From positions 1 through 53,592 of IMG/VR virus record IMGVR_UViG_3300033143_005707: a stretch of 53,592 bases of DNA. One strand, 5' to 3'. Made by a program: the position numbers and the translations under genes. The notes beneath the pieces are model-generated. The model searched no databases. It was not told where the DNA came from and was given only the letters and a program-made list of their open reading frames with translations. Below, in pieces: positions 1 to 53,592 of the stretch (position 1 is the stretch's first letter; each line of letters opens with the position of its first letter). Source of the DNA: a virus.

Positions 1-94
1 TAAATGAACTAGCAATAGCCATTAGATCACCTTTCTCAAATGGAAAGCCGTTCCAAGTTCCCGTGGCAAATACTTCAACTTCTAATTCATACAT
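1..94 (-). CDS. Head protease/scaffold, N-terminal fragment (duplicate of the window end)
   Basis: This is the beginning of the gene given in full at 52547-53572, present twice only because the window ends overlap. The ATG (complement of 92-94) is preceded by a strong GAGGAG ribosome binding site. It overlaps the last 13 bases of the upstream radical SAM gene, so the two are probably translationally coupled. Confidence 0.9.
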   Translation of the reverse strand, partial: MYELEVEVFATGTWNGFPFEKGDLMAIASSF

Positions 95-114
95 TTTTCT
101 TTCTCCTCACGTAA
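1..114. repeat. Terminal direct repeat, left copy
   Basis: Identical, base for base, to 53479-53592. It contains the start codon and first codons of the head-protease gene that ends the window, so the two ends join into a circle. The length and position inside a coding gene look like an assembly overlap of a circular or circularly permuted genome rather than a physical end. Confidence 0.95.
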
Positions 115-798
115 AACTTTTTTATCTATAATATCATTGGGTATAACTTGTGAACAAGAATCACATAATTTACCTTGATTTATTACTAAATTTTTAACTT
201 CATTTCCTACATTGTCTGATACATGATAACCTTCATAATCAAAACAGCATGTCGTTATATCACCATTACTCAATACTGTCGCCCATCCTTCTTTTAAATA
301 TATACATTCTATAACAGGCGCAGTTTCTTCCCATTCTATCTGGCCTGCCCAGTTAAGGGACGATGTAACGAAACTTGCATTAACATCTGCAAGTATTCCA
401 TATTTCATAGCTAGGTCAATTGTTTTCTTTGCTCGCTCAGGTCTATGCAATGAGATATATAATTCAATATTTAATTCAGCAAGTTCTTTAATTTCTTCTT
501 CACTAACCTTAATACCGTTTGTTGAAAGTAAGATGCGTTTACCATATTCATCACGAGCTAATCTACACATGCTCATAAATAAAGGATTTAAAAAACTTTC
601 TCCCATTCCTGTTAAACTTAATTCAGGTTGTGTTCCTTTTCTATCATAATAAGAAACATGATTCATAGCCTGTTCAAATGTTTCCATGCTCATGTGCTGT
701 TTAGGTCGTTGCATTTTAGAATGCGGGCAATACTCACAAGCAAGATTACATTCATTAGTAATTTCTATTTGATGAATCCGTGTTACTTGAACATTCAC
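82..798 (-). CDS. Radical SAM enzyme with twitch/SPASM-like C-terminus, copy 2
   Basis: Radical SAM proteins use a [4Fe-4S] cluster to cleave S-adenosylmethionine and start radical chemistry. The cluster motif C-x3-C-x2-C is at about residues 17-24 (C17, C21, C24). It is followed by a GMGE motif and a STNG motif typical of the family. The C-terminal third has a CC pair (TTCCFD) and a C-x2-C pair (LCDSC), as expected for an auxiliary cluster of the twitch/SPASM type. I chose the GTG start at 798, which overlaps the stop of copy 1 in GTGA; an ATG at 840 gives 14 more residues but has no visible ribosome binding site. It is clearly a paralogue of the neighbouring gene (shared IHQIEIT, LHRPE and GWA/NWAGQ blocks). 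The substrate is unknown; the position between portal and head protease suggests a virion protein or peptide. Confidence 0.85.
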   Translation of the reverse strand: MNVQVTRIHQIEITNECNLACEYCPHSKMQRPKQHMSMETFEQAMNHVSYYDRKGTQPELSLTGMGESFLNPLFMSMCRLARDEYGKRILLSTNGIKVSEEEIKELAELNIELYISLHRPERAKKTIDLAMKYGILADVNASFVTSSLNWAGQIEWEETAPVIECIYLKEGWATVLSNGDITTCCFDYEGYHVSDNVGNEVKNLVINQGKLCDSCSQVIPNDIIDKKVLREEKEKCMN

Positions 799-1484
799 GC
801 TGTATGCACTCTCTGTTCTTCTGGTACAGATAAATGACACTTATTACATAGGCTATAAGGATACATCATTAGAGTCTCTAAATCATCATCATTAACATGA
901 CCAACAATACCTTTTCCTTCTCCATCAAAACAACATCTGGTGACCATGCCGTCAGCCATAACAAATCCCATTTGATCGCGTATCCAAGAACATTCATTAC
1001 CTTTAGGAGCGGTCACTTCCCAATCAACTTGACCAGCCCAATCAACAGAAGCAATAGATGGATCAGCACTAACTCCTTTCAGTACACCGGCTTTATTAAG
1101 CATATTAACAGCAGGTCCAGCTTTTTCAGGACGATGCAAACTAACCCATACGAAAACATTATTACGTTTTAATGCTTCCACATTTTGTTCTGTTAATGAA
1201 ACTCCATTGGTTGCTAAAATTAAATTACGTTCATTACCTAGAGCTATACGAGCATGATCAACATAGATATCAAAATTTGGATGCATTGTACTTTCGCCGA
1301 TACCGGCTAAGTTTAATTCTGAACCTTGAGTTCCAAGTTCAACAAAACGCCTTACCCAAAATAAAGAACGTTCAAAGATTTCTATATTCATATCTTCTTT
1401 AGCTCTTTTCATATGTGGATGTACACAATATTTGCAACGTAAATTGCAGCGAGATGTTATCTCTATTTGATGAATAGTATTCAT
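795..1484 (-). CDS. Radical SAM enzyme with twitch/SPASM-like C-terminus, copy 1
   Basis: A 229-aa protein with the radical SAM motif at C13, C17 and C20, then GIGE (SAM amino-group binding region), ATNGV and LHRPEKA blocks. The C-terminus carries TRCCFD and SLCNKC, candidate ligands of a second iron-sulfur cluster, so the architecture resembles short twitch-domain proteins rather than full SPASM peptide maturases. GGAG stands at good spacing before the ATG. It lies 19 bases after the portal gene and is coupled to copy 2, all within the head operon. Family members modify peptides, sugars or nucleotides; nothing in the sequence fixes the substrate. A RiPP-like peptide is not evident nearby. 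Confidence 0.87.
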   Translation of the reverse strand: MNTIHQIEITSRCNLRCKYCVHPHMKRAKEDMNIEIFERSLFWVRRFVELGTQGSELNLAGIGESTMHPNFDIYVDHARIALGNERNLILATNGVSLTEQNVEALKRNNVFVWVSLHRPEKAGPAVNMLNKAGVLKGVSADPSIASVDWAGQVDWEVTAPKGNECSWIRDQMGFVMADGMVTRCCFDGEGKGIVGHVNDDDLETLMMYPYSLCNKCHLSVPEEQRVHTA

Positions 1485-1503: not shown

Positions 1504-3864
1504 TCACATAAATCCTTTTTGTGGTGTCATTGTTGGTTCCCCACCTTCTACAAAGTCTTCTTCATCTACTTCAGTAACTGGAATTAATAAAGATCTACAG
1601 TTATAATGATTTGGTGGACGGTATGAAGCATTTTGCTCCCACCATTCCATTGGATGATTACCACGAGTTTCTTCATCTAAGTGCTTACATATAGCAGTTG
1701 TTCTTCCATCTAATATTGCTGAATATTCATATCCAACAACAAAACCATCTAATGATGGATCTGTAAAATAGGAGTGACGTGCCGTATTGATGGCGTCAAA
1801 TGTTCCAGTTCGTATTATTGTACGGATACGCGCATCGGGATTCGCCACTCCTAAAGCCTCACCAAGCGCATCTTTCGCTTGATCCAAACTTATAAGTCCT
1901 TTTGTTGCTGCCGTTTTATAGATTTCTTGTTCTACTTCATACCAAGTTTTATCATAACGAGCACCATTTAAAATTTCTTGTTCAATGATATTAACTGCTT
2001 CATCAGTAAAATTGCCTGTTATCTTAAACGCTTTCGTTTTAAAATAATCCGTGGCTATAAGGTCAACTCTTTCTGGTGGTATCGTTCTAGAAAAACCGGA
2101 GCCTTTTGCCTTATCAATTTCTAATGCTGCATGTTTTATTCCTTCTTTAAAACCTTCCCTTAGCATAGAGTTTTGAATTGTATTCAGTTTTCTTTTTAAC
2201 TGTTTATCAACCTTTAATAAACGAATATTCTTACTAACATTTTCATCTAACAATCCACCCTGTTTACCCTTCTCTATAAGGTCGGCAAAGATCATGTCCA
2301 TTGTATCCGCTGTTTTGGCATGGTATTCATCAACGATACTATCAGTTGTTTTCCCAATAACCGCAAAATCACAGCGACGCAATGATTTGGTAAACGCACT
2401 AACAGAGATAAGTCCTTTACCTATAATAGTAGATTCTTTAGTTAGCTCCTCATCTTCCTTTTCTTTTTTATCTTCTTTAGGGGGTTTATCTTCTTTGTTT
2501 TTTTCATCTTCTTCTACGTTAGCGTTATCATCGTCGTCACTATTATCAGAATCACCATTGTCACTAGCAATGCGACTTTGTCTTTCTTCTTCAGCATTGG
2601 CCAAATCCTCTTCACTAATTTCAGGGAATTCCATTAATTCGCGCAAATGACTTTCATCGGTAGAAGTTCTTGTAACTGCTCCGGCTGTAACTAAAGTTGT
2701 CCATGTGTTTATTATTTCTAATTTCTTGCTACCAGTAGCGGGCTTGAATTTAAATCGTGGCCATGCATCATCACCAAAATTAACTTCTGCTAACTGTCTA
2801 AATAATTGTTCGTTAATCGCTTCTTCAAGCCTTGTCGCATCAGCTTCCAATGTCCACAAGAAAGCCTCAAGCTGACTTGTTGCTTGGGAATTAGAACCAT
2901 TTTTTCCTTGCGGTGATACTCCAAGCAAATTCGGCACCAATAGAGCTCTAGAAATCGCTGTATCATTATCGTCAATCGCTTCTTTAAATGAAACATTGTT
3001 ATTTGGATAATCACTATTAAATTCTACAGAGCTTGGAATTATTGCTCCGGTGGACATTTGGATAGTGCTTAAAACAGTTTGTAAATCAGCATACTCTTGT
3101 GAGCCGCGTGTTATTGTTTTCCCATCTTTTGCTTGGAACCAACGGAATCCACCTGAGTGCCGTTCAAGCCAAATATTGCGAAACTTATATATAGCATCTT
3201 TACTGAACCAAGCACGATATGCTTCCCTTAATTCACTACCACCATAATGTTCATCAATATCGGAGTTTACGACATACTTAATAAATTTATTCAATTCCAC
3301 CGTTTGGGTTTTATTGTTTACTTTTTGAGTTGTTTTTATTTCTTCCCCAAATTCATCAACATGGAAATAAAACGTATCATAAGGTTTTAATTTTAACTTC
3401 TTAATTCCCCACCATGTAACATTATTAAACTCTATTTGACTGAATATTTTTTCAGTCATAGAATAGCCATTATATATGGCTGACATAATCCCATTTAAAC
3501 CATCTATGAAGCTACCTTCTAATTGATTAATAATTTCATAACTTAATGCAATCCGTTTTTCTGTTTCCTTTTCTGATAAACCATATTTATCCCCGTCCAA
3601 TGTAAAAATATAGTCCCGTGCTGTAACTGCATCACGCTTGAATTTAACAGATGCTTTCACCTGTTCGTCCTGCATCATTTTCTTATATATAGCAGGACCT
3701 CTACGGCCAATTAAATCATCTGGATTATATTTTTCAAAATCAGAAATGTTATAGATAACAGATTGCTCTGACCAACCAACATTTCCAGCAGGAAGATTTT
3801 CAACTTCTCTTACTTCTGGCTTAAATAAAAGCTCAGAAACTTTCTTTCTAAAATTAGGCATCAT
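1504..3864 (-). CDS. Portal protein fused to Mu F-like head morphogenesis domain
   Basis: The N-terminal half resembles DUF935/Mu gp29-type portals (block NPDDLIGRRGPAIYKKM and following helices), which form the dodecameric DNA channel and bind terminase. An acidic, low-complexity linker lies at roughly residues 450-480. The C-terminal part carries the Mu gpF/SPP1 gp7 signature: YSAILDGRTTAIC, then RPPNHYNCRS and PVTEVDEEDF. In Mu these are two genes, so this is a natural fusion. An earlier in-frame ATG at 3921 would overlap the large terminase by 68 bases; the ATGATG at 3859-3864 leaves about 11 and gives 786 aa, which I prefer although its ribosome binding site is weak. The gene follows terminase directly, as in most tailed phages. 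Confidence 0.88.
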   Translation of the reverse strand: MMPNFRKKVSELLFKPEVREVENLPAGNVGWSEQSVIYNISDFEKYNPDDLIGRRGPAIYKKMMQDEQVKASVKFKRDAVTARDYIFTLDGDKYGLSEKETEKRIALSYEIINQLEGSFIDGLNGIMSAIYNGYSMTEKIFSQIEFNNVTWWGIKKLKLKPYDTFYFHVDEFGEEIKTTQKVNNKTQTVELNKFIKYVVNSDIDEHYGGSELREAYRAWFSKDAIYKFRNIWLERHSGGFRWFQAKDGKTITRGSQEYADLQTVLSTIQMSTGAIIPSSVEFNSDYPNNNVSFKEAIDDNDTAISRALLVPNLLGVSPQGKNGSNSQATSQLEAFLWTLEADATRLEEAINEQLFRQLAEVNFGDDAWPRFKFKPATGSKKLEIINTWTTLVTAGAVTRTSTDESHLRELMEFPEISEEDLANAEEERQSRIASDNGDSDNSDDDDNANVEEDEKNKEDKPPKEDKKEKEDEELTKESTIIGKGLISVSAFTKSLRRCDFAVIGKTTDSIVDEYHAKTADTMDMIFADLIEKGKQGGLLDENVSKNIRLLKVDKQLKRKLNTIQNSMLREGFKEGIKHAALEIDKAKGSGFSRTIPPERVDLIATDYFKTKAFKITGNFTDEAVNIIEQEILNGARYDKTWYEVEQEIYKTAATKGLISLDQAKDALGEALGVANPDARIRTIIRTGTFDAINTARHSYFTDPSLDGFVVGYEYSAILDGRTTAICKHLDEETRGNHPMEWWEQNASYRPPNHYNCRSLLIPVTEVDEEDFVEGGEPTMTPQKGFM

Positions 3865-5356
3865 AATTTGCAGATTCCATATGGCCAAATGTTTCAGGAG
3901 TAAAATGTGCTGCGTTCGCATAATTTGGAGATTGAGTAGCGTATTGCATTGCTAAACTATCAGCACGATCTGGGGAAGGAAGTCCCGCTTGCTTAATCCT
4001 TCTTTTTGGTTCTATGTCATCAACTTTTTCATTGTCTTTATTCCTTTTAATGCTTAAAAGGTGTGAGCGATATTCATCTTCATCATCTATAGAATTTGGT
4101 AAAGAAATAATCGCACCTTCAGCAAATGCTTCATATAAGGCCATATAGGATTGGACTCTTCTATTTCTCCAAACAGAAGGACTATCCGATTTTTCACCAC
4201 CTTTATATACAACAACATTTTGATTTAGCTTCATTAAGTAACCGGCAGTTCCGGATCCGCAGCCTATTGAATCAACAACAAAATCATCACCCTTAGCAAC
4301 ATCTCCGCCATATCCTTTAAACATTTCCAGCCCTGCTTCAGCCGCTTTAATCGGAGCTTCAGCTGCATTGAAATAAAATTGTTTTTGGGAAAGAACTATA
4401 CGGTAGGATTGATAAACTTTACAGACTGTTATAACAGTAGAATCACCACCACCATCGGCCACATCAATTGAGACTCGTATAGTGGGGTGAGAACCATCTT
4501 CATATTCTTCACTATCCAATGAACTTTCAATATACTCCATTGGAATTAATAGGTATTCATCAAACGCAGCAAATTCACCCATCGCTCTTATTAAAGTAAT
4601 TGGGGAGTTCGCTCCATATTTCTTAATCATGGTATCAACCCATTCTTTAGAAACTAATTCAGGTGCGTCTTCTTGCTTAATATGAAATTTAAAATAAAGG
4701 TCTCTTACGCCACGCTTACAATGATGATTATAAAATTCGCCTTCCGTGCGTGTAGGATTTCCTATTTCTACAGATACCGATCCCAATGTGGTTAATGCGC
4801 CTTCAATAACAGGAAACATAGGATCTAGTCTTTTTGCAGAAGCTTCATCAATTAAAAATAATTGCGGATCATCATGATAACCGGCTAAATTATCAGGGTC
4901 ACTTGCTGTTTCTGCTATAGCCCCCCAATCCGGATCACCAAAACAATCTATGTCCATTCCCTTTACTTTAATATTTTTTCTATAAAATTGATCAGCATGA
5001 GCCATAGCACCACGATAACGAGGCCATAATCTTCTTGTTAGTTGCGCTTCTTTGGGAGCAGTACAGGCAATCTTCCCAAATGTAGTAAAATTCCAAATAT
5101 GCATCAGCAATGCAAGGACTTGAGTTTTACCAGTACCATGACAACTGCGAATAGTTATCCGGCATAATCCTTTATGATTAATAATGGTGGGACGTCCTTG
5201 TATTTTTCTCCGTACATCAAAGACTGCATTGATAGCATCTAATTGCCAATCAAGTGCGGGAAAACCGAGAACATCGGTAAAAAACCATTGAGGATTATCT
5301 TCTGCATGAAGGGCAGCAGCTTTAAATTCATCCATCTGCTTTGTGATGGCATTCAT
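3854..5356 (-). CDS. terL: Terminase large subunit
   Basis: The DNA-packaging motor: an ATPase that translocates genome into the prohead and a nuclease that cuts it. Walker A is SCHGTGKTQ at about residues 70-78, Walker B is LFLIDEAS near 165. The C-terminal RNase H-like nuclease shows acidic blocks SIDVADGGGD (near 295), VVDSIGCGSG and PSPDRADSLAM. At 500 aa it is of normal length. It overlaps the small subunit candidate by 4 bases (ATGA) and the portal by about 11, the standard packaging cluster order. Confidence 0.93.
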   Translation of the reverse strand: MNAITKQMDEFKAAALHAEDNPQWFFTDVLGFPALDWQLDAINAVFDVRRKIQGRPTIINHKGLCRITIRSCHGTGKTQVLALLMHIWNFTTFGKIACTAPKEAQLTRRLWPRYRGAMAHADQFYRKNIKVKGMDIDCFGDPDWGAIAETASDPDNLAGYHDDPQLFLIDEASAKRLDPMFPVIEGALTTLGSVSVEIGNPTRTEGEFYNHHCKRGVRDLYFKFHIKQEDAPELVSKEWVDTMIKKYGANSPITLIRAMGEFAAFDEYLLIPMEYIESSLDSEEYEDGSHPTIRVSIDVADGGGDSTVITVCKVYQSYRIVLSQKQFYFNAAEAPIKAAEAGLEMFKGYGGDVAKGDDFVVDSIGCGSGTAGYLMKLNQNVVVYKGGEKSDSPSVWRNRRVQSYMALYEAFAEGAIISLPNSIDDEDEYRSHLLSIKRNKDNEKVDDIEPKRRIKQAGLPSPDRADSLAMQYATQSPNYANAAHFTPETFGHMESANYDA

Positions 5357-6562: not shown

Positions 6563-6988
6563 TCACTTGAGCAAATCATCAATAAGGTTTTTCATTTTCT
6601 TACCGTTTAGGTACTCGTTTTCATTCTCATTAATCGCCTCCATTAGAGCGTCTACTATACGGGAATAATCCCTATGCCCTTTTTGGCTTTTAACGATTTG
6701 CATCATTGATTCCATTGCTTCACCGGAAACCTGAAGTGGCGCGAAATCCCCGATCATTTTCAAAGTTTTTTCTTGCTTCTCATTTAGGTCAAAAAGCATA
6801 TAGATTTGCATTGCCTTTTCGCTTCCGTGCAATACAGCGATTCTTTGAAATTCAATTAACATGCGATCCAAATGAATCATCTTGTTTTTTTCTTCCCCTA
6901 CATAATCAACTATTGATTTTGAGGGATAAAGTTTTACTTCTCTTGCCATTCTCATTGCAAATTCTGTAGGAAAATATTCATCATTCAT
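6563..6988 (-). CDS. Uncharacterised protein (141 aa), first gene of the late operon
   Basis: A helical, soluble protein with charged ends (KKMKNLIDDLLK at the C-terminus). I recognise no domain. It is the first gene after the non-coding stretch 6989-7263 and so probably the promoter-proximal late gene; a DNA-binding or packaging accessory role is possible but unsupported. The frame stays open for 55 codons after its TGA stop into a 60-bp repeat region. Confidence 0.7.
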   Translation of the reverse strand: MNDEYFPTEFAMRMAREVKLYPSKSIVDYVGEEKNKMIHLDRMLIEFQRIAVLHGSEKAMQIYMLFDLNEKQEKTLKMIGDFAPLQVSGEAMESMMQIVKSQKGHRDYSRIVDALMEAINENENEYLNGKKMKNLIDDLLK

Positions 6989-7018
6989 TTCGTTGCTCCT
7001 TTATATGTTTATACTTGG

Positions 7019-7039
7019 TTGTACTTTATTATAGTACAA
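7019..7039. promoter_or_regulatory. Inverted repeat, operator-like
   Basis: Arms TTGTACT (7019-7025) and AGTACAA (7033-7039) around a 7-base AT spacer. The site is about 30 bases before the first late gene and overlaps TATAAT on the minus strand. The half-site AGTACAAAC recurs at 7176-7184. It is a plausible binding site for a dimeric regulator, which I cannot identify in the genome. Confidence 0.4.
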
Positions 7040-7213
7040 ACTCTAAGTGGTTGTTTTCTATTTCTATTCTATTATAAAGACTATATATATATTACTATAT
7101 TAAGACCCTGCAAACACCTATATTTGAGCATTTGAAGGAGGGTGCGTGGGGGCGTGGGGCGAATTCTGATATAAAAGTACAAACCCCTGTTTTACCTTTA
7201 AAAACATACACTT

Positions 7214-7237
7214 ATCCTGTATTATATCCTGTATTAT
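7214..7237. repeat. Tandem 12-bp repeat
   Basis: ATCCTGTATTAT occurs twice back to back (7214-7225, 7226-7237), 27 bases beyond the stop of the primase gene. Confidence 0.7.
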
Positions 7238-7263
7238 TGTGATACAAATGATATAAACGGATA

Positions 7264-9492
7264 CTATTCATCAGGGAATCCATAATACTTTGCCCGCTTA
7301 TTAGGAATTTCTACCTGTACTAACTGGCCAGACCTTTCAAATAATCGCGTTATCTTTTCTATCCGTTCTACAATATTCTTTTTATCCGAATTATCATCTA
7401 GATTTCTTAATAGTTTTTTCTGGCTAGATATAACCCGAGTTACTTCACACAACGGAACAGCGTGATATCCTTTAATCGCTTTTTGATAGTTTTTCTGTGC
7501 AGCACGTTCACCGGATATTAAATCACTAAACGCATTAAGGATTCCTTCCGCCAGAGGATCAATAGACGTATTGATATATTCTTTAATCGCATATAATTTA
7601 CAGTCAGCCCAATAATTCAATAATGGGAGTAACAACTGAGTATCAAACTTTTCTATTTCTTTCCCATGCTGTTCAGCCCAATTCTTACTAACTCCTAATA
7701 CTAGGGTATAAATCTGCTCAGCGGTGATTTCCAATCGTTTAAGCATTTTTATGCAATTATCATCATCGCCTGCTTTTTCTTTAATTTCTGTTTCCATCCA
7801 TTTACGAAGAGTATCTAACCCTTCATCGTCAGGCATTAATACAATTTTCTTTTTATGCTTAGTTGGTGAGTTTTCGTAAAACTTGAGTAATTCCTTATTT
7901 ATACGATGTTGATGTTTTTTCTTTCTAACGAATGATTTATCAAAAGGGTCTTTATTGCTGCTATGAACAGTTATAATCATACGTCCTAATAAACCGCTAT
8001 CAATCAGATTAGATTTTAAATATGAGGATATCGTTTCAGGTTGGGTATACAATAGGATTTGACAATTCGGGTCTTTAATGGTTTTTACTTCTTTGCCAGA
8101 TTTCATTTTACCCATGATTTCTTGGCCGTCAACAACATCTACGATTTTACTTTCTAATGCTTTTACATGAGAATTAGAACCGCCTGAATTACTCATTTGT
8201 TGAAATATGTGAGTTGCTTCAGTGTTTATCCAAAAGAAGTTTTCTGCTTCATTAAATGATTCTAAAAAAGCGGTATCACTTGTTATGCTTTCGTGCCTTG
8301 ATGCCATATCGGAAAAAGGCGAATGTTTAATTCCGTTATCTTTAAATATTTGATTTAGCGTTCTTATGATTCTTTTACTGTTTACATCTTTACTTGCCGT
8401 TGACATTGCAATACCGAGAAATGCAAGGTTAGGCCGCAATCCCCATTCTGTTACATAATTAGAATTCAATAAATAACTATGAACACTTAATATAGTAGGA
8501 AGTAATAATTCTTTTTCTAATGTGCGGGGAAGTTTTTGAAACTCTTTCCAAATCAATGGCCACGGCTCTGGCCAAGTATTCAACAAATCTTCTGGGAGTT
8601 GTGGCGTAATTGACTTTTGTTTTTCAGACCTTGTTATCTTTCTAACCGGAGCTAATTCGCCATTAATTTTTTCTACTGCTGAATCATAACATTCATCTAA
8701 ATGCCGTTCATCAAATCGGCTTGCTATATCACCCTGACGCTTATGGTCTACATCATCATAGTTAATTCCTTGATGTAAAATGTGCATCGTTTGATTAAAT
8801 AATTCTTTATTCATGCCACGACCAGCGCAAGATAAAGCGATGCTAATCATGCTCCCATGAAGGTCATTCGTGCTCACTAATTCTTGGACAGCACTTTTCA
8901 TGCTGAACGTTCCATGGCTATCAGTATAATTTGATTTCTTTTTTTCTGCTGGGGGAAAGGCTGTTTTAATAACTTCCCATTTATACTTGCGGAAATTACC
9001 ACCAATTACTTTGACGCGAAACTTTCCTGCTTTATGATGATATGTGGAAGGGACTCTTAAAACGCGACTTATATCACGCGCTTTTTTATCGCAGTTATGT
9101 TCGTCAACCATTGTTTGCATGACGCGTTCAAATTCATCATATTTCTTTGTATTGGTTAGCCAATAATAATGATATTTATTTTTAGATGAATTAACTACTA
9201 TAGAAGGTGGTAGTGGCCAGTCCGTTATTAATTTTCCGCTATCATCGTCTTCTACCCAAACTGCGCGAACTCTTAATACTTTATTTTTCTTACGTTGACC
9301 AGCGGGAAATTTGTTTACTGTGAAATATATTCCAAATCCAATTTTGTTTAATGGCTTAATTTCGCTTTCATTTATAACACCTTTAAAACCACGGTCATGG
9401 TGACCCTTTTTACTTTTAAGATCATCGCCAGCACTATACTGAATCTTATTTATATTTTTATTAAAGAGCTTAAGAAATTCTTTTTGGTTCAT
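7264..9492 (-). CDS. Primase-polymerase with DUF3987-type C-terminal domain
   Basis: A 742-aa replication protein. The N-terminal ~170 residues resemble the archaeo-eukaryotic/RepB-like primase fold: an acidic metal-binding strand (VWVEDDDSG), a PPSIVVNSS strand then a YHYYW motif, and ARDISRVLRVPSTYH. A PriCT-like linker follows. The C-terminal ~450 residues match DUF3987 proteins (LNTWPEPWPLIWKEF, FLGIAMSTASKDVNSKRI, WINTEATHIF), thought to act as helicase-type ATPases; the Walker A here is atypical. It would prime or unwind phage DNA beside the C-family polymerase encoded elsewhere. It is the only replication gene on this strand, and is preceded by a terminator-like hairpin. Confidence 0.75.
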   Translation of the reverse strand: MNQKEFLKLFNKNINKIQYSAGDDLKSKKGHHDRGFKGVINESEIKPLNKIGFGIYFTVNKFPAGQRKKNKVLRVRAVWVEDDDSGKLITDWPLPPSIVVNSSKNKYHYYWLTNTKKYDEFERVMQTMVDEHNCDKKARDISRVLRVPSTYHHKAGKFRVKVIGGNFRKYKWEVIKTAFPPAEKKKSNYTDSHGTFSMKSAVQELVSTNDLHGSMISIALSCAGRGMNKELFNQTMHILHQGINYDDVDHKRQGDIASRFDERHLDECYDSAVEKINGELAPVRKITRSEKQKSITPQLPEDLLNTWPEPWPLIWKEFQKLPRTLEKELLLPTILSVHSYLLNSNYVTEWGLRPNLAFLGIAMSTASKDVNSKRIIRTLNQIFKDNGIKHSPFSDMASRHESITSDTAFLESFNEAENFFWINTEATHIFQQMSNSGGSNSHVKALESKIVDVVDGQEIMGKMKSGKEVKTIKDPNCQILLYTQPETISSYLKSNLIDSGLLGRMIITVHSSNKDPFDKSFVRKKKHQHRINKELLKFYENSPTKHKKKIVLMPDDEGLDTLRKWMETEIKEKAGDDDNCIKMLKRLEITAEQIYTLVLGVSKNWAEQHGKEIEKFDTQLLLPLLNYWADCKLYAIKEYINTSIDPLAEGILNAFSDLISGERAAQKNYQKAIKGYHAVPLCEVTRVISSQKKLLRNLDDNSDKKNIVERIEKITRLFERSGQLVQVEIPNKRAKYYGFPDE

Positions 9493-12043: not shown

Positions 12044-12315
12044 TGAATAAGAAAAATTACGACTTAGTTTTTAAACTAACCTCCTTAACCAATGATATTA
12101 AAGGCACATTGGAAAAGCAAGAGAATGATTTAATATTGGCGATTGCTGCTAACAATAGAAGGGAGATTGAAATTAAAAAAATGGCTGCAAAAATATTAGA
12201 GCTAGAAGAAGAAGAATATACAGTTCATAAAGGCAAAAGTTATTCAGTTAATAGTGAGGAGATAGCATCACTAGGGTTAGCACTTGCTAAAGCAATCGGG
12301 GAAAAAAATGATTAA
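12043..12315 (+). CDS. Uncharacterised helical protein (90 aa)
   Basis: Helical, with a coiled-coil-like middle (EIEIKKMAAKILELEEEEY). Coupled by TAATG upstream and overlapping the deformylase gene by 8 bases. No function visible. Confidence 0.6.
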   Translation: MNKKNYDLVFKLTSLTNDIKGTLEKQENDLILAIAANNRREIEIKKMAAKILELEEEEYTVHKGKSYSVNSEEIASLGLALAKAIGEKND

Positions 12316-12751
12316 GTCTATAATAACGGATAAAAAAGAGTTGTCTAAAATTTGCACAATGGATGGCTGGGATATCCGTGGTGTTTCTTCAGACTTGCTA
12401 GAAACGGCTAACCACTTGTATAATGAATGTGCTGGCCTTGCCGCAAATCAAATCGGTTTTAACGCTCGTATTATAGTGGTAAAGCTGGCTCATGGTTTTG
12501 AATTAATGGTTGATCCAAAGGTTATAGAATTATCCGGTAAGTTTAAAAATGGAAAAGAAGGTTGCTTGTCCCGTCCCGAAACAATTAAAAAACCTGTTAA
12601 TGTTAAACGCTATTACAAAGTAGAAATAGTTTATGCAAATGCTGAAGGCGAATACATAAAGAAAACTTTTAAAAACTTTTATGCACGAGTAGTACAACAT
12701 GAAATGGATCATTTGGATGGAATTTTGATAAGTGAAAAATATAATGATTAA
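12308..12751 (+). CDS. def: Peptide deformylase
   Basis: Removes the formyl group from the N-terminal methionine of new proteins; a metal-dependent enzyme. All three family motifs are present: AGLAANQIG (motif 1), EGCLS (motif 2, metal cysteine) and QHEMDHLDG (motif 3, two metal histidines and the catalytic glutamate). The ATG at 12308 has GGGGA before it and gives 147 aa, short like other phage deformylases. Phage versions are known, mainly in marine phages, and are thought to keep up with rapid protein synthesis during infection. Confidence 0.93.
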   Translation: MIKSIITDKKELSKICTMDGWDIRGVSSDLLETANHLYNECAGLAANQIGFNARIIVVKLAHGFELMVDPKVIELSGKFKNGKEGCLSRPETIKKPVNVKRYYKVEIVYANAEGEYIKKTFKNFYARVVQHEMDHLDGILISEKYND

Positions 12752-28750: not shown

Positions 28751-29872
28751 ATGAAAATTAATATAGTTAAATTAAATTGTGAGGATGAAAATGAAACGTC
28801 ACTTTCGCTTCGTGCTTGGGAATATTCAAGGTCGCCTGGGAATACAACTGCTGAGGAAATATTTGAATTAAATTTGCCAGTAAATGAAATGCCAAGTGCA
28901 ATCCTTGAAATTGAATCAACAATTTTAGAACGTGAAATAATTGTTAGCATGAGGGATCATAATGTTTGGGCTAGGACATCACGCGTTGATGATCCATTAA
29001 AATTTGATATACCAGTTATCATTAACCTTGGTAAGTATAAAGATTTAAAAGAAGAATCCATAAGCCTGATGACTGATGCAAAAAATATTGGGATGCGACA
29101 AGATGAATATAGAATGTTGCTGCCATTAATTGCATTAACAAAATATACGATTTCTATAAACTTACGTTCCTTAATTTTACTTCGTAATTTCTTTAAAGAT
29201 CTTTATGACACTGGTATTTATAGGTCAAACCTTCCGCCTGTTATATTACTAGGTGCTTATAAAAATTTATCTAATGTTATTGTTAAAATGACAGGTAGTG
29301 CTAACCTTGATAAATATCCAAATATTAATTTGCTGCCAGTATTAAAAGAAAAAACCAGTGGCAGACACGGAGGTTTTATAACGTACTCCGGAACAATTAA
29401 TTTTGGATTAAGGTCGCATCTTATAAGGCATAGAAGCGTTTTTATGAATGATAATTTACTTGAAATTATAAATTCAGAATCCTTTGATAAACTAACATTA
29501 GAATCTAAAGTTGAAATTAATGTCACATCAAGTGTTGAATTTTGGACGCGCATAGTTTCAAATCGTAGTTGTTGGCTTGCACACTATGGAATGTGGAAAG
29601 GCTTATTAGATGAAGTTTCTAAACACATAGATAGTGATATAGATAAAATCCTTCCGTGCAGTTGTGGTGCATGTCCGTTTGGAGCAGACAATGAATTGCG
29701 ACTAGAAAATAAAGATCCTAATCCCCCATGTCCAATTTATATTTCTAATAATAACATTGTGACAAATAAAAAAGTTATTGATGAAATGGTAAACCAAATG
29801 CTTGAAGATGAAAGGCCAGTTTTCTGGGCAGCTGAAATTAATAAAGCAAGAAAAATATGGAGTGGTGAATGA
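28751..29872 (+). CDS. ThyX-like protein, apparently two fused ThyX-type units
   Basis: ThyX makes dTMP from dUMP with FAD. This 373-aa protein is far longer than normal ThyX (about 220-250). Residues ~113-145 (GMRQDEYRMLLPL, then INLRSL) match the second half of ThyX (LPL...NARSL), preceded by a degenerate RHR region (MRDHNVWARTSR near 75). Residues ~205-290 repeat the plan: FGLRSHLIRHRS keeps the RHR motif, and SSVEFW...NRSCWLAHYGMW matches the second half again. So each unit keeps a different subset of active-site features. A cysteine-containing segment (CSCGACPFG) near the C-terminus is not part of ThyX. It may be a divergent synthase or a nucleotide-modifying enzyme. Confidence 0.6.
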   Translation: MKINIVKLNCEDENETSLSLRAWEYSRSPGNTTAEEIFELNLPVNEMPSAILEIESTILEREIIVSMRDHNVWARTSRVDDPLKFDIPVIINLGKYKDLKEESISLMTDAKNIGMRQDEYRMLLPLIALTKYTISINLRSLILLRNFFKDLYDTGIYRSNLPPVILLGAYKNLSNVIVKMTGSANLDKYPNINLLPVLKEKTSGRHGGFITYSGTINFGLRSHLIRHRSVFMNDNLLEIINSESFDKLTLESKVEINVTSSVEFWTRIVSNRSCWLAHYGMWKGLLDEVSKHIDSDIDKILPCSCGACPFGADNELRLENKDPNPPCPIYISNNNIVTNKKVIDEMVNQMLEDERPVFWAAEINKARKIWSGE

Positions 29873-30495
29873 TGCAGCCATGTAAAAAATTAATACTGTT
29901 TGATCTAGACGGTGTCCTTATTGATTCTAAAAAGAATATGGAAATGGCTTGGCAAGTTGTACAAGAAAAAATGAATGTGCCAGTTGCCTTTGAAGAATAT
30001 TTTAAACATATCGGTAAGCCTTTTAAAAACATAATGGAAGCACTGGAACTTGACGCGTGGACTTATGAAATAGAAAGTTTATTTAAGGAACAATCTATTT
30101 TAAATATAGATGAAGTTAATTTTTATCCCAATGTTGAAACAGTTTTGTCACAGTTAGGGAAAACATATCAACTAGGAATAATTACTTCAAAGGACAGGGA
30201 AAGAACAGGATTAATACTTTCTAGGTTAAATAATAAATTTGAAGTAGTTGCAACTCCCAATGATGCTTTAAGGGGTAAGCCAGCACCGGATCATTTATTA
30301 CATGCTATGGCAATAAGAAATGTTGATCCAAGTGAAACTATATATATAGGAGACATGGAAGTTGATTTGGTTGCAGCACGGAGAGCAAAAATTGACTATA
30401 TACATGCACTATGGGGGTATGAATCTGATGTGCTATGCCATCGTTCAATATCAAAAATTGAAATGCTTCCTCTTTTGCTTAAGGAAATGCAATGA
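29869..30495 (+). CDS. HAD-family phosphatase
   Basis: A 208-aa haloacid dehalogenase-like hydrolase, subfamily IA: motif I FDLDGVLIDS (nucleophile Asp near residue 13), motif II IITSKD, motif III GKPAPD and motif IV YIGDMEVDL. It resembles phosphoglycolate phosphatases. Beside a KdsB homologue it may dephosphorylate a sugar phosphate in the role of KdsC, or act on nucleotides. ATGA overlaps on both sides tie it to its neighbours. Confidence 0.8.
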   Translation: MMQPCKKLILFDLDGVLIDSKKNMEMAWQVVQEKMNVPVAFEEYFKHIGKPFKNIMEALELDAWTYEIESLFKEQSILNIDEVNFYPNVETVLSQLGKTYQLGIITSKDRERTGLILSRLNNKFEVVATPNDALRGKPAPDHLLHAMAIRNVDPSETIYIGDMEVDLVAARRAKIDYIHALWGYESDVLCHRSISKIEMLPLLLKEMQ

Positions 30496-47406: not shown

Positions 47407-47943
47407 CTATAGAGCGTGTGAACCGATTTGTATTTCCATTTGTACTTTAAGGAAATCCGAAGCGTTTAATGTTGCATCAACACTATTAACATGATTTCCA
47501 AAAATACCGGAACCAGAACTAGCATGATTAATGATACCAGCAGAAGCAAGAGCGACACCTGTTAAGGTATCTGTATTTCCTGCCCATGTTGCAACTAAAA
47601 TCGCAACCTCATTAGAGCTTACTATAGTAGCTCCAATCTTCCGACTAACTTCACCAAGACCAGCTTGAGTAGACCCAAGTGAACCTTGATTAGTTACTGT
47701 ACCGATTGCAATATATTGAAACGCGGAATTAGTACCAGTGGCATCACCAATCATTAATTCTGCGATTGCATTTAAACCGTCCTTGGTTACAATGTTTTCA
47801 CATTCATGTTTTTCAACGGAACCATCAGCACGAGTAATTTCAAATTTCCATTTACCCTTAACGGCTAAACCGTCACCTAAGTTTCCACCAATAGTCTGCT
47901 TAAATTTATTAAGCAATTTTTGTTCAGAAGTATCTTGACTCAT
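47407..47943 (-). CDS. Tail-fibre/decoration-like protein (178 aa)
   Basis: Follows a plan common in phage appendage proteins: ECENIVTKDGLNAIAELMIG, then FQYIAIGTVTNQ, a short STQAGLGEVSRKIG and a strand-rich end. This module is found at the tip of fibres or on head decorations. Overlaps the end of the glycosyltransferase fusion gene by 20 bases. Confidence 0.6.
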   Translation of the reverse strand: MSQDTSEQKLLNKFKQTIGGNLGDGLAVKGKWKFEITRADGSVEKHECENIVTKDGLNAIAELMIGDATGTNSAFQYIAIGTVTNQGSLGSTQAGLGEVSRKIGATIVSSNEVAILVATWAGNTDTLTGVALASAGIINHASSGSGIFGNHVNSVDATLNASDFLKVQMEIQIGSHAL

Positions 47944-50938
47944 AATTTTTTACCTTTTCGTTAAATAATGCTTTTAATAAATTTTCAGCATGTTCTTTAT
48001 TGGCGAAGTGCGCCATAACAGGCAATGCCTGTTCCATTTTAATTCCACCATTCATTTTTGAAGTATCAATAGCAAAACCCATTTCAAATCCTTCGCCAAG
48101 TATTTTAGCTAACAGACTATAAAATTCCATTCCATCAACTAACATTCTTAGATGATTTCCTTCAAGTAGTTCTTCCCAAATTTTAATTCCTTCTACTGCC
48201 CGCTCTTTCATTTCATTAGTTATGTGACCACCATTAACTTCAATCTCATATTTACACATTTGAGAAAGGTCGCGCAACCACAGGAATTTACCCAATACAC
48301 GATCAGGATATTTTTTACGATCACGAACTAATAAATCTATATTACGATCAAACCTTTTACGGCGAATAATTTCAGTAGAATAACCGTGGTGTGCAATTTC
48401 CAAATCGGGAATTAACTGAACAAATCCAACGCCCTTGTTTAATTCTTTTTCGGGATGCTCATGCACTACACCATAAAATTTAATGCCCTTATGATTTCTA
48501 AATAAGCGGCAAGGCAAATCAGTTTTCATAACGCCTAAAGGTTCAATGGCGAAATGATGTTGCTTAACTGCATAGCCATCAAATTGATTGTTATGAAGAT
48601 ACTTATATATACGCTCAGGGTGAATTAAAATTTCATCTGCATCTAGCCAGAAAATCCAATCACCGGAAGCATCTTCAATAGATAAATTACGCGCTTCATC
48701 AAAACCGATTTCCAAAGGAGACTTAATTGTAATGACCTTAACTATAGGCCAGTTTCCTTTTATAGTTTCTTTGAAATTATTAATGATACCAAAAGTATGA
48801 TCAGTAGTATTTTCATCAACGGCAATTATAATTTCATCTGATATTTCTTTAATTGAATCTAGGCATTGCTTTAAACTTCCTTCTCCATCCTTAACAATTA
48901 AACAAGAAGAAACTGTTTGACGGCCGACCATGTTATTAAACTTGCGGACATAATCAATGCTGCGAGAAATTAATCCACATGGGTTTTTGAATATTGTTAT
49001 ATAACTCCCTAGCACATTGCCCCATTTTGAATTGCCAGAAGGAACAAGAGCAATATTAAATTCAGGATAGTGACCCCATAAATCATGTAAATCGTCACGC
49101 TCAAAATGATGCACATGAGCTCGCCACGGATAATGTTCTTCATAGCCTATAGCTTCCCAAGGTCCGAATGGTGTGGTTAAAATCATCATTGAATCTTTAT
49201 CTTTAAGATAGTTACATAAAGTATCTACATAATATTTTGGATCACCAATATGTTCAATCACTTCTGCCGCTATAATACAGTCAGCTAATGCAATTGATGT
49301 GATTTCTGCACCGGATTCTGCGAATGCTTTAATGATTCCGGTTTTATCTTTTTGTGGGATTGTCCCATGGATGAATTTGGCATTTCCGATTCCTGTTTCT
49401 CTGCACCAATCATTCGCTGTTTGAACATTAGATAATGTAATGTCAATACCTGTAAAATTTTTGTCTGGGAATCGCTTCGCAAGATTAATGGTATAATGTC
49501 CGTGAGCGCAGCCATAATCCAAAATGGTAGAGCCGCTAGGAAGAGACTTGATAATACTACTGACATGCTCAAAACGAGGATTACCATCCAAATTTTCTTC
49601 ACCATAATTTACTCCACGGTCTTTTTCATAATCGTAATATTTTTTATAATGTTCTTCCCAGTCATTGTTGAATGCAAACCCGTAACACTCGGATAATTCT
49701 TTTGTTACACCTGCAAGAATATTATCATCTAAATTATGCTCTGCCGGAATAAATTCATTAAGGGCATAAATATCGCTTGTATGAAGCATGTGGCGAGCCT
49801 TTGCTGCACTGGAGTTATTTCTATTCATACAAGTATGAACATGATCTAGTAACATCTCCGTGGCGTGAATCCATTCATATTTTTTAGCAGCAGCCGATTG
49901 GATTGCCCTCAATGGAGGATATTTTTCAGTTTTTTGAATTGCATCAACAAACATTTGCAAATCTGGCAATCCATCTTCACTTAATTCTAAAAGAATGCTT
50001 CCGCTATCTCTACAAGTTTCTGGCAACGCACCTTTCGTGGTTGAAATAAATGGTAGTCCTGCGGCCATACATTCCATCGCCGTTATACAACTTACTTCTT
50101 CAAAATCTTTTGCCGAAACATTTGGAGTTGGATAAACCATTGCATCACATTGGCGCATAACATCTGCCAATTCTTGTTTCGTTAACGCTCCTAAAATTGT
50201 CACGTTAGGTAAATCTTCACAACGCTGAGCTAGGTACTGATAATAATCTTGAGATTCAGCAGTTGTGTTTTCATAAGCACAAACATAGAGATGATATTTT
50301 TTATCAATCTTTGCAAGGCGTTCCATAATTCCATTGTATGCAACTAAGTGTTCTAGTCCACGTTCAGGGCGTGAGGAATAAAGTAATGATACTTGGTCTG
50401 AACGGCTTTTTTGTAAATGGTCTATAGTTAATTCTCGTTCAAACAAACTTAAATCAACACCGTTTTGAATTGGGAAAACATTATCAGGATTAATTCCATA
50501 AACTTCAACGTATTGTTTTTTATGAAATTCAGACACTGTAAGGATACCGTCCATGTTCCATAAGTTACTTTGAACAGAAACATTATTACGGACTTGAGCA
50601 AGGTCATGAACCCACCATAATTTAATTTTCGCAGCCCATCCATATTGAAATGCAGCAGGATGACGCTGAATAATTAAAACATCGTGTGGTGTGTTTTCAG
50701 CATAAAAATGAAAACGATCACCAAGTGGAGTTTGCTCAGTTGGACTACCAGCAAAAACATACTTGACTCCGTCCCATTCACCCTCTTCTTTTTCATTTGT
50801 GAAAAGGGTAACTCTATTTCCTTTGGCAGCTAATTCTTTCGCCATATAATAAGCGGCAGTTTCACTTCCACCAAGTGATTTAGATTTTATAGTTGCGCCG
50901 TTGAACGGCAGACCCATACAGTGTATGACAATGAACAT
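47924..50938 (-). CDS. Three-domain fusion: GT4 glycosyltransferase, methyltransferase, GT2 glycosyltransferase
   Basis: A 1004-aa protein with three enzymes in one chain. Residues ~1-390: GT-B (GT4) with SLGGSETAAYYMAKEL at the start and the C-terminal EVSCITAMECMAAGLPF near 288. Residues ~420-660: a SAM methyltransferase with ILDYGCAHGHYT near 470 and a post-motif AAEVIEHIGDP. Residues ~670-960: GT2 with SSCLIVKDGEGSL near 677 and the metal-binding WLDADEIL. No membrane span is seen. It sits among virion genes and follows the capsid gene, so it may glycosylate virion proteins or build an O-methylated glycan on them. AAACCGGAGA precedes the start. Confidence 0.83.
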   Translation of the reverse strand: MFIVIHCMGLPFNGATIKSKSLGGSETAAYYMAKELAAKGNRVTLFTNEKEEGEWDGVKYVFAGSPTEQTPLGDRFHFYAENTPHDVLIIQRHPAAFQYGWAAKIKLWWVHDLAQVRNNVSVQSNLWNMDGILTVSEFHKKQYVEVYGINPDNVFPIQNGVDLSLFERELTIDHLQKSRSDQVSLLYSSRPERGLEHLVAYNGIMERLAKIDKKYHLYVCAYENTTAESQDYYQYLAQRCEDLPNVTILGALTKQELADVMRQCDAMVYPTPNVSAKDFEEVSCITAMECMAAGLPFISTTKGALPETCRDSGSILLELSEDGLPDLQMFVDAIQKTEKYPPLRAIQSAAAKKYEWIHATEMLLDHVHTCMNRNNSSAAKARHMLHTSDIYALNEFIPAEHNLDDNILAGVTKELSECYGFAFNNDWEEHYKKYYDYEKDRGVNYGEENLDGNPRFEHVSSIIKSLPSGSTILDYGCAHGHYTINLAKRFPDKNFTGIDITLSNVQTANDWCRETGIGNAKFIHGTIPQKDKTGIIKAFAESGAEITSIALADCIIAAEVIEHIGDPKYYVDTLCNYLKDKDSMMILTTPFGPWEAIGYEEHYPWRAHVHHFERDDLHDLWGHYPEFNIALVPSGNSKWGNVLGSYITIFKNPCGLISRSIDYVRKFNNMVGRQTVSSCLIVKDGEGSLKQCLDSIKEISDEIIIAVDENTTDHTFGIINNFKETIKGNWPIVKVITIKSPLEIGFDEARNLSIEDASGDWIFWLDADEILIHPERIYKYLHNNQFDGYAVKQHHFAIEPLGVMKTDLPCRLFRNHKGIKFYGVVHEHPEKELNKGVGFVQLIPDLEIAHHGYSTEIIRRKRFDRNIDLLVRDRKKYPDRVLGKFLWLRDLSQMCKYEIEVNGGHITNEMKERAVEGIKIWEELLEGNHLRMLVDGMEFYSLLAKILGEGFEMGFAIDTSKMNGGIKMEQALPVMAHFANKEHAENLLKALFNEKVKNYESRYF

Positions 50939-51226: not shown

Positions 51227-52183
51227 TTAAGAGGAGCTCGTTACGTTAGTCAGCAACATGCCATATTCAGCACCCGTTACTTTTTCCTCTTGATAGTAAC
51301 CAACTTCTATATCTTGAGCTTTTTTCTTAGTGTCATAAGGATGACGCTCAACTTGGAAGTTTGGTAAACCAGCTTGATTCCAACGGAAAGAATAACCAAA
51401 ACTTGGACGCTCTTTACTTGCACTCATCGGAGTGTAATGCGCCAAAACATGATCATCCCAAATCGTAGATAAGTTTTCAACTAAACCTTCACCAGCAGTA
51501 TTTTGGAAAGTACCGCCAACTTGAAGATCTTCAATTTCAAACAGATCCTTAACTTGCTCAATAGATGCGTAACCACCTCCATTATTAGTACCATAGATAA
51601 TATTCCGTACATCAGTATGACGACGGAAAGTTTGCCATGCCTTGATTCCGAAAGTTAAACGGTTTGGACGCTTGCCAGTAGAATACTGAACGTTATCCAA
51701 AATCGTATTAATATCACCAATAGGATCAGAACCAGCACCACCATCATTCCATGCACTACCAACGGCAGAATATGAACCAACATTAGAACCAGACGTAACC
51801 TTATTCGCAACACGAACTTCCCAATCCAATAACAACCCATCCATCACCAATTCCGTTTTACCGTTATTGAGATTATCTAAATAGATTGCATCAGCATTTT
51901 TAAAATCTTCAATTGGAATTGAGGATTTCAACGCATAGTTTTTGGCGTAGTACGTTTCCGAACTCACACTTTCTTCAATACGTTTAGCTTCAGTAGCCGG
52001 AGCACGTTTAGTATCGTGGATACGTAAACGGTCTTCGCGACTCCATATAACATAAAGATCAGACTGTTTTGCCACATCAACAATCGGCATAATCATGTCG
52101 GCGATAAAACCTTCAGGACGATAACCTAATGCGACTTCTGACAGAGCCTTATCAATATGTAGATCTTGAGCAGTAGCACCCAT
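51227..52183 (-). CDS. Major capsid protein
   Basis: A 318-aa protein, right size for a capsid subunit, directly after protease/scaffold and decoration genes. Blocks typical of E-type/HK97-fold capsids of Mu-like heads: LSEVALGYRPEGFIADMIMPIV, TYYAKNYALKSSIPIEDF, NRLTFGIKAWQTFRRH and SFRWNQAG. A strong terminator follows the gene, in line with high expression. Confidence 0.85.
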   Translation of the reverse strand: MGATAQDLHIDKALSEVALGYRPEGFIADMIMPIVDVAKQSDLYVIWSREDRLRIHDTKRAPATEAKRIEESVSSETYYAKNYALKSSIPIEDFKNADAIYLDNLNNGKTELVMDGLLLDWEVRVANKVTSGSNVGSYSAVGSAWNDGGAGSDPIGDINTILDNVQYSTGKRPNRLTFGIKAWQTFRRHTDVRNIIYGTNNGGGYASIEQVKDLFEIEDLQVGGTFQNTAGEGLVENLSTIWDDHVLAHYTPMSASKERPSFGYSFRWNQAGLPNFQVERHPYDTKKKAQDIEVGYYQEEKVTGAEYGMLLTNVTSSS

Positions 52184-52194
52184 AATAAAACTCC

Positions 52195-52545
52195 TTATGC
52201 GATTAGCATTCCGTTAGCAAAGTTGAAAATACCTTCACCAATTCCACCAGAAGAAACAGCCGCGATTGCGCGACCAATACATGATTGACCAGATGTAACA
52301 GTGGACATATATCCAGATTCTGTTACGGTCAATAGCGCACCCGCATTAATCGCAGCTTTTGCGACATAGCGACTACGACCAAAATATCCAACAGTTAAAT
52401 CTTTTCCAGAAGCATCTGGTTTATTTTGTTGGATACCCATAGCAAGAGCATTTGCAGCGATTGTTCCACCAACTACGACAGCCTTATATTGAGAAGCAGA
52501 TAAATCCGCTCCGGCTGCCAATGGAATACTTTCTAAATATGACAT
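52195..52545 (-). CDS. Head decoration protein, DUF2190-like (116 aa)
   Basis: Small beta protein with QYKAVVVGGTIAANALAMGI and AKAAINAGALLTVTESGYM, the DUF2190 pattern found next to capsid genes, where trimers stabilise the shell. Position between scaffold and capsid agrees. Confidence 0.75.
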   Translation of the reverse strand: MSYLESIPLAAGADLSASQYKAVVVGGTIAANALAMGIQQNKPDASGKDLTVGYFGRSRYVAKAAINAGALLTVTESGYMSTVTSGQSCIGRAIAAVSSGGIGEGIFNFANGMLIA

Positions 52546-52546
52546 T

Positions 52547-53083
52547 TTAAGCCTCCATCATTTTAGTGTAACGATCAGCTAAATCAAGATCAGCTTTAAG
52601 GACTGCGGTTTTCGCAATAGAGAATTTCTTCTCACCATGTTTTGCCATATACTCATTTGTCCGAGCAACAACAATTTCACTTGGCGACTTATCGCTTTCT
52701 TGTTCAACAGCATTCGCCTTCAGGCGAGCTTGTTCTGCACCAAAATATGTTGGATTAGCATCAATCGCTTTTTCCAAAGATTCAACAGCAAATAAAGTAG
52801 CTTCTTTATTTTCTGCCTGATCATATGAAGTCAACATTTCAGTACGAGTAAATGGCGCAATCTTTTTATCCTTGACCATTCCGTCCAAACGCTTTTCTAA
52901 TAAACCGCGTTCTTCAACTTGCTTACGATTCTGCTCAATAGCTTCATTCGCTGCAAACTTTGCTTTATTGTCAATCTTGTCTTTTTCAAGAGCAGTATTG
53001 GCAGTAACAAGTTTCGCAGTTTCAGCCTGAGAAGCAGAAAGCTGTAATTTAAGCGTTTTCATTTCTTCGCTTTCTTCAGCCAT
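52547..53083 (-). CDS. Nested scaffold protein (internal in-frame start)
   Basis: At 53083 an in-frame ATG (MAEESEEMKTLKLQLSASQ) follows a strong AAGGAG at ideal spacing, inside the protease gene. The 178-aa product is coiled and charged, as expected of scaffold. It parallels lambda C/Nu3 and Mu I/Z, where the same trick makes excess scaffold over protease. Confidence 0.8.
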   Translation of the reverse strand: MAEESEEMKTLKLQLSASQAETAKLVTANTALEKDKIDNKAKFAANEAIEQNRKQVEERGLLEKRLDGMVKDKKIAPFTRTEMLTSYDQAENKEATLFAVESLEKAIDANPTYFGAEQARLKANAVEQESDKSPSEIVVARTNEYMAKHGEKKFSIAKTAVLKADLDLADRYTKMMEA

Positions 53084-53572
53084 TTCTTTACTCCTTGATT
53101 TCGTTTCAATTGATGTTGCTGTAAAGGCAACACGTTTTTTAAAGGAAAGTGGATCTTTACTCATATAGCTTGTCAAATCAGCAATCGTATTAACAGCCGG
53201 TATATCCGCACCGAGCAACGCTACTCCAGATAAGACTAAATCATAAACACTTCCTTTATGTTCAACACCATATTCCAATTCTATTGAAACATGTTTATAC
53301 AACTTCTTTGTCATTGCATCATATACAATTTTTGGCATGTCCGTAAATTTTGCTACTAGCTTTTCACCACGGACAAATAAATCAGTAACCCAACCCAGAG
53401 CGGGCTGACCATCGGTCATTCCTTGTTCTTCATTATGTCCAAATTTTAATGGTACATCATGAACTTCTTTTAGGGAACTAAATGAACTAGCAATAGCCAT
53501 TAGATCACCTTTCTCAAATGGAAAGCCGTTCCAAGTTCCCGTGGCAAATACTTCAACTTCTAATTCATACAT
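52547..53572 (-). CDS. Head maturation protease with C-terminal scaffold (Mu gpI-like)
   Basis: The N-terminal ~155 residues match Mu protein I proteases: FATGTWNGFPFEKGDL, VPLKFGHNEE (His), ALGWVTDLFVRG and KHVSIELEYG, with a LSGVALLGADIPAV (Ser) block. A helical, charged C-terminal region follows, typical of scaffold. A second start inside the gene gives the scaffold alone. The protease cleaves scaffold and itself during head maturation. GAGGAG before the ATG; the gene crosses the window ends. Confidence 0.83.
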   Translation of the reverse strand: MYELEVEVFATGTWNGFPFEKGDLMAIASSFSSLKEVHDVPLKFGHNEEQGMTDGQPALGWVTDLFVRGEKLVAKFTDMPKIVYDAMTKKLYKHVSIELEYGVEHKGSVYDLVLSGVALLGADIPAVNTIADLTSYMSKDPLSFKKRVAFTATSIETKSRSKEMAEESEEMKTLKLQLSASQAETAKLVTANTALEKDKIDNKAKFAANEAIEQNRKQVEERGLLEKRLDGMVKDKKIAPFTRTEMLTSYDQAENKEATLFAVESLEKAIDANPTYFGAEQARLKANAVEQESDKSPSEIVVARTNEYMAKHGEKKFSIAKTAVLKADLDLADRYTKMMEA

Positions 53573-53592
53573 TTTTCTTTCTCCTCACGTAA
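53479..53592. repeat. Terminal direct repeat, right copy
   Basis: Exact copy of bases 1-114. Collapsing it gives a 53,478-bp circle in which the protease gene is continuous with the upstream radical SAM gene. Confidence 0.95.

Follow-up and report, generated by a model that had tools for sequence, protein, structure and literature searches.

Paired twitch-type radical SAM enzymes in the head-gene block of an uncultured phage lineage: an accessory cassette with a possible part in glycan tailoring

Two paralogous radical SAM enzymes of the twitch type are encoded in the head-gene block of a virus (IMG/VR record IMGVR_UViG_3300033143_005707), and the same pair recurs in related phages as an accessory cassette. 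The whole stretch of DNA analysed here, 53,592 nucleotides in length, is referred to as the window. We give an even chance to the reading that the two enzymes of the pair carry out a tailoring step for a virion glycan. This is the most likely account of the fold, the metal ligands, the pairing, the synteny and the link to an enzyme class, all of which were computed; the substrate, the reaction and a virion protein as acceptor are what we infer. Glycan tailoring is favoured because the fold is of the BtrN type, a peptide-binding domain is missing, the companion enzymes are of glycan-modifying types and the radical SAM gene overlaps the glycosyltransferase (GT) gene in two relatives.

Both radical SAM genes lie on the minus strand, with a portal-MuF fusion on one side and the head protease on the other. 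The features of the window to which we refer are the following:

795..1484, minus strand: copy A, a radical SAM-twitch enzyme of 229 aa (Pfam PF04055, E 3e-10; AF2; Foldseek; tree clade alpha)
82..798, minus strand: copy B, the paralogous radical SAM-twitch enzyme (Pfam PF04055, E 1e-13; AF2; match to BtrN 4m7t; clade beta)
1504..3921, minus strand: fusion of a Mu-like portal and a MuF minor head protein, the upstream neighbour (Pfam Portal_Mu, E 1.7e-40; Phage_Mu_F, E 3.8e-8)
3854..5356, minus strand: terminase large subunit (phrog_2, E 4.8e-20)
52547..53572, minus strand: head maturation protease (PHROGs phrog_976, E 4e-27)
52195..52545, minus strand: small head protein between protease and capsid, head scaffolding according to PHROGs (phrog_673, E 4.9e-10)
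51227..52183, minus strand: major capsid protein (phrog_1005, E 1.4e-66)
47924..50938, minus strand: GT4 - class I methyltransferase - GT2 fusion of 1004 aa, downstream of the capsid gene (Pfam Glyco_transf_4, Glycos_transf_1, Methyltransf_23 and Glycos_transf_2; synteny)
1..114, strand not applicable: terminal direct repeat of 114 bp, identical to 53479-53592 (circle junction; end-to-end identity)

The first and last 114 bases of the window being identical, it closes into a complete circle, and the start of the protease ORF (52547-53572), read across this junction, falls at window position 94. A sequence-only reading had placed two paralogous radical SAM genes between the portal fusion and the protease, and both ORFs, their Pfam matches and their neighbours are indeed present. 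The close coupling that it described was found as well: the stop codon of copy A overlaps the GTG start of copy B in a GTGA at 795-798, and upon closure of the circle the protease start at position 94 overlaps copy B by 13 bases (82-94). Copy B may start at the GTG inside the GTGA overlap (82-798, 238 aa) or at an upstream GTG at 840 (82-840, 252 aa).

Copies A and B share 38% identity. Both belong to the Pfam family Radical_SAM (PF04055), the two scores being 51.9 and 40.8 bits against a cut-off of 29.5 bits. Copy A carries the radical SAM motif C13-x3-C17-x2-C20, twitch cysteines at positions 165, 184, 213 and 216, and a W149-A-G-Q segment. The motifs listed earlier from the letters of the two genes (C-x3-C-x2-C, GxGE and CC...C-x2-C) proved to be real and family-wide, with two corrections: strict conservation in the family alignment does not extend to C185, the second cysteine of the 'CC', and the invariant C165 is a further ligand in the C-terminal domain, beyond these motifs. 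The three radical SAM cysteines and the four twitch ligands (C165, C184, C213 and C216) are kept in the two paralog clades alike, apart from gaps at some positions in a single beta row, and H117, W149 and G179 are invariant across the alignment. Since the cluster ligands are complete in both clades, neither copy resembles a dead enzyme, and judged by their sequences both appear catalytically complete.

The AlphaFold (AF2) models of copy A (pLDDT 96.7) and copy B (pLDDT 90.6) consist of a radical SAM barrel followed by a short C-terminal domain. Foldseek returned BtrN (4m7t, solved with AdoMet and its aminocyclitol) as the best PDB match of copy A (E 6e-12, TMq 0.72, 209 aligned columns), and the same structure was best for copy B (E 6e-10, TMq 0.68); the runner-up folds, anSME for A and ChlB for B, followed with E-values several orders of magnitude behind. 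BtrN is likewise the closest solved structure by sequence for both copies, the match spanning both domains in the case of A. Four conserved cysteines and a BtrN-aligned model place the C-terminal domain in the twitch class, with a predicted auxiliary cluster. Assignment to SPASM (PF13186) failed, copy A scoring 18.7 bits against a cut-off of 21.5 bits and copy B giving no match; only the four C-terminal ligands are strictly conserved, and the two auxiliary clusters of SPASM are not matched. Structural comparison with twitch and SPASM proteins, which the sequence-only reading had named as a check, hence came out for twitch, with BtrN first, and against SPASM, and the twitch-type identity is backed by the models, the BtrN match and the complete ligands of both copies.

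BtrN, the 2-deoxy-scyllo-inosamine dehydrogenase of butirosin biosynthesis, catalyses the two-electron oxidation of a carbocyclic, sugar-like aminocyclitol, and its auxiliary cluster, which has four cysteine ligands, is proposed to serve as electron acceptor (PMC9012708). BtrN shares with A and B the short barrel, the twitch domain and a single four-cysteine auxiliary cluster, predicted in the phage proteins. However, identity to the phage proteins is only about 19-20%, BtrN belongs to an antibiotic cluster whereas the present family occurs as an A and B pair in phages, and the SNRGG segment of BtrN, by which the phage proteins do not qualify as BtrN, corresponds to a conserved D/N-W-A-G-Q. 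Because SNRGG is replaced by WAGQ, the reaction of BtrN itself (DOIA oxidation) is not expected. We count this replacement against glycan tailoring, along with the ranking of anSME soon after BtrN and one locus (L013) in a replication region.

The anSME and SPASM maturases, which also combine a radical SAM domain with a C-terminal auxiliary cluster domain and represent the next-best fold, differ from the phage proteins, which are much shorter and lack the full SPASM domain and the second auxiliary cluster. The pair might nevertheless modify a virion polypeptide directly, be it the portal, capsid, scaffold or protease product, in the manner of peptide cyclases or anaerobic sulfatase maturases; we regard this as rather unlikely. 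The next-best folds include anSME, which modifies proteins without an RRE, and the peptide-modifying ChlB, and the best partial matches in NCBIfam, all of them far below every cut-off, are protein or cofactor maturases. On the other hand, BtrN is clearly the best match, both AlphaFold models lack an RRE, a leader-binding domain or any other N-terminal extra domain, and no conserved precursor ORF recurs beside the radical SAM genes among neighbouring ORFs of at least 50 aa. With neither an N-terminal domain nor a recurrent small ORF in this size range, the proteins do not qualify as RiPP maturases.

The two copies form a lasting pair. In a phylogeny of 94 sequences, all 36 two-copy records for which both genes were included combined one A-type with one B-type gene; 16 of these records belong to the window's half of the family, where either gene order occurs, and 20 to the other half. 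Single copies were A-type in 14 cases and B-type in three, with two unplaced, and some of them lie on incomplete contigs. Independent duplications in the two halves, as suggested by a quick tree, are disfavoured: with the A-type clades of both halves held together, the tree reached a likelihood 4.7 units above that of the free tree (AU p 0.55). A single ancient duplication, which we prefer from the tree, is the simpler account, short of proof. Retention of one A and one B would be the expected trace of a two-step pathway or of a heterodimer. The earlier proposal that the duplication reflects one of these two gains an ancient matched pair in its favour (36/36), a pattern which fits either.

Concerning the place of the pair in the lineage, loci were fetched by the capsid protein or the GT fusion, irrespective of radical SAM genes, and synteny was derived from clustering of neighbouring ORFs and HMM annotation. 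The core order of portal-MuF, protease, small head protein, capsid and GT fusion is also kept in the loci fetched in this way. Among 79 complete blocks, 32 contain radical SAM genes and 47 do not. By the position of the first radical SAM gene, the 32 divide into 22 with the gene between portal and protease, four between capsid and GT, five after the GT gene and one before the portal. In relatives without radical SAM genes, portal and protease often touch or overlap, or the slot holds other genes, ranging from those for probable structural proteins to one for a hydrolase. Searches of whole records detected the family in 16 of 41 GT- or capsid-fetched records, and in 11 of the 12 long records where the family was missing, radical SAM genes of any kind were absent as well. 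An essential role in head assembly was therefore rejected, and we regard the pair as an accessory cassette and not as an assembly requirement. The argument made from the window, that genes placed where the operon is tightest yield a product important for particle assembly, is unsupported, as the cassette is missing from so many blocks and moves within and out of the head region.

Most copies of the radical SAM genes are found in the head block. In two long records (L013/G007 and L023/G017) they lie outside it, and the GT fusion and the capsid protein are still encoded. In L023 they are far from the head genes; L013 has a single radical SAM gene in a region of replication and nucleotide metabolism, with neighbours named by eye as exonuclease, ThyX-like, MazG-like and PolIII alpha.

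Direct modification of a virion polypeptide would agree with the main position between portal-MuF and protease (22 of the 32), yet close relatives produce the same head proteins without a radical SAM gene, and no positive evidence was obtained for a capsid or portal polypeptide as target, as the sequence-only reading had envisaged. The slot between portal and protease is a general insertion point. In L139 (3756-7322), L145 (3783-7087) and L143 (1090-6104) other genes occupy it over 3-5 kb; most are unidentified, and some resemble those of structural or decoration proteins.

A cassette that is accessory and mobile within the block, in a slot that relatives fill with unrelated genes, could also consist of morons which use a tolerated late-gene slot and serve host takeover or anti-defence, by viperin-like nucleotide chemistry or a change of the host surface. 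Weak similarity to prokaryotic viperin (NCBIfam) and to viperin structures points in this direction. We consider such a role improbable: viperin ranks far below BtrN with matches mostly confined to the barrel, and both the lasting retention of one A and one B and the overlap with the GT gene in some phages favour a dedicated pathway.

For glycan tailoring, the GT4-methyltransferase-GT2 fusion is the proposed partner, a core gene that follows the capsid gene across the lineage. It was found in 34 of the 49 radical SAM records, the others being mostly short contigs; since the fusion is universal in the lineage, this co-occurrence alone is weak evidence. In L020 and L017 the radical SAM gene runs into the GT gene, with overlaps of 10 nt and 7 nt, respectively, and it adjoins the GT gene in L024, L126-L128, L117 and L121. 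Of the versions of the earlier idea, a link to the GT fusion is the best supported.

Genes between or beside the radical SAM copies include those for FkbM methyltransferases, class I methyltransferases and sulfotransferases. Accessory ORFs of at least 120 aa between portal and GT were scanned with Pfam. The 32 loci with radical SAM genes yielded six FkbM proteins, four sulfotransferases and four methyltransferases, whereas the 47 loci without them yielded four methyltransferases, one polysaccharide deacetylase and neither FkbM proteins nor sulfotransferases. Custom HMMs detected a tailoring gene of any kind in 13/32 as compared to 2/47 loci (Fisher p 7e-5), a test inflated by near-identical contigs (L099/L175, L041/L096) and by HMMs partly seeded from radical SAM loci. 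Most of the association comes from one half of the tree. Neither FkbM nor sulfotransferase genes occur in the window's own head block; in the nearest relative of the window, L007, a sulfotransferase-like gene is recognised by motif only.

Such companions are typical of glycans, which speaks against a polypeptide as the substrate, and FkbM proteins and sulfotransferases are ill-suited to DNA. Modification of DNA bases or nucleotides, as in hypermodified phage DNA, has little probability in our view. It would suit the L013 gene in its replication and nucleotide region, the nucleotide enzymes elsewhere in the window (e.g. YfbR-like and deoxyribosyltransferase proteins) and a Dam methylase in one block with radical SAM genes; most copies, however, belong to the head block rather than to a group of early nucleotide genes, and the QueE PHROG is matched no better than other radical SAM families are.

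If the pair tailors a glycan, each copy, judging from ligands and fold, would generate a 5'-deoxyadenosyl radical at its radical SAM [4Fe-4S] cluster and hold one auxiliary [4Fe-4S] cluster by four cysteines. The radical would take a hydrogen from a sugar or a similar small polar substrate, which would be oxidised or rearranged, the auxiliary cluster accepting the electron. A and B would act in successive steps or as a heterodimer and yield a tailored sugar, which the GT4-methyltransferase-GT2 fusion would use in building a glycan on a virion component. Further tailoring in relatives would come from sulfotransferases and from methyltransferases of the FkbM type and of class I. The genes would reside in the head block because of a late-expressed accessory slot and not because of a need in assembly. 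More tentatively, and with somewhat less than an even chance, we propose a virus-only two-enzyme radical SAM pathway by which a tailed-phage virion acquires an unusual sugar, one that is oxidised, epimerised or deoxygenated; the methyl and sulfate tailoring enzymes that share the head-gene slot would be interchangeable. If true, the surface sugars of a virus particle would be completed by radical chemistry, a use not encountered in the papers searched. It would help to explain why a giant GT fusion is kept beside the capsid gene in a large uncultured phage lineage, and it would provide a defined gene set for probing the purpose of phage virion glycans.

With an alignment as query, the family was recovered from 49 viral loci. 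A single-protein scan of viral contigs remained empty because its patterns derived from one sequence; alignment queries succeeded. Among cultured phages, tblastn with copy A gave no match and no close relative, and no cultured carrier of the pair was found. The sole match in 84,980 cellular genomes, MEWP01000162.1 (L056), is labelled a Zixibacteria MAG. It was rejected as a cellular gene since it is apparently the same 10,453-bp contig as IMG/VR 2708742752_000004 and carries phage head genes; it is probably a binned phage contig. So far the pair is virus-only, with no convincing cellular gene, in surveys that rest on short exact peptide patterns, which distant cellular relatives may escape. 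A literature search on phage head and glycosylation loci with radical SAM genes found no arrangement like this one.

Mycobacteriophage virion-glycosylation loci encode phage GTs, with glycans on capsid and tail tube subunits, in the account of Freeman et al. 2023 given in PMC12619734. The present lineage likewise encodes its own glycosyltransferases, here as a single GT4-MT-GT2 fusion. To our knowledge, no radical SAM enzymes have been described from the mycobacteriophage loci.

Caudoviricetes sp. vir524 (BK063669.1, L188), a methanogen-associated phage (Methanomicrobiales), has a distant radical SAM-twitch-like gene (6989-7729) shortly downstream of its MuF gene and ahead of the next head genes, beside a small Cys-rich ORF (6628-6984). 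Its product (25.7% identity) has no WAGQ motif, and the head genes are different; convergent placement is possible. Sulfotransferase-like P-loop proteins (SGTHY or TGTHY by eye, Pfam-negative) are encoded in the portal-protease or capsid-GT gap of blocks without radical SAM genes, at L083 946-1617, L152 10223-10882, L095 6175-6849 and L102 3695-4315.

The window also encodes, on the plus strand, a full-length CMP-Kdo synthetase (kdsB, 30492-31223), above the NCBIfam cut-off and adjoined by a HAD phosphatase gene (29869-30495), which could be a source of activated sugar. As none of the other 28 records searched has kdsB, which makes the window unique among the 29, a conserved CMP-Kdo supply as part of the radical SAM module was rejected. 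Two further plus-strand genes of the window are a 373-aa ORF (28751-29872), with no Pfam or NCBIfam match and a ThyX-like RHR motif by eye, and a peptide deformylase gene (12284-12751; PF01327, E 1.5e-31).
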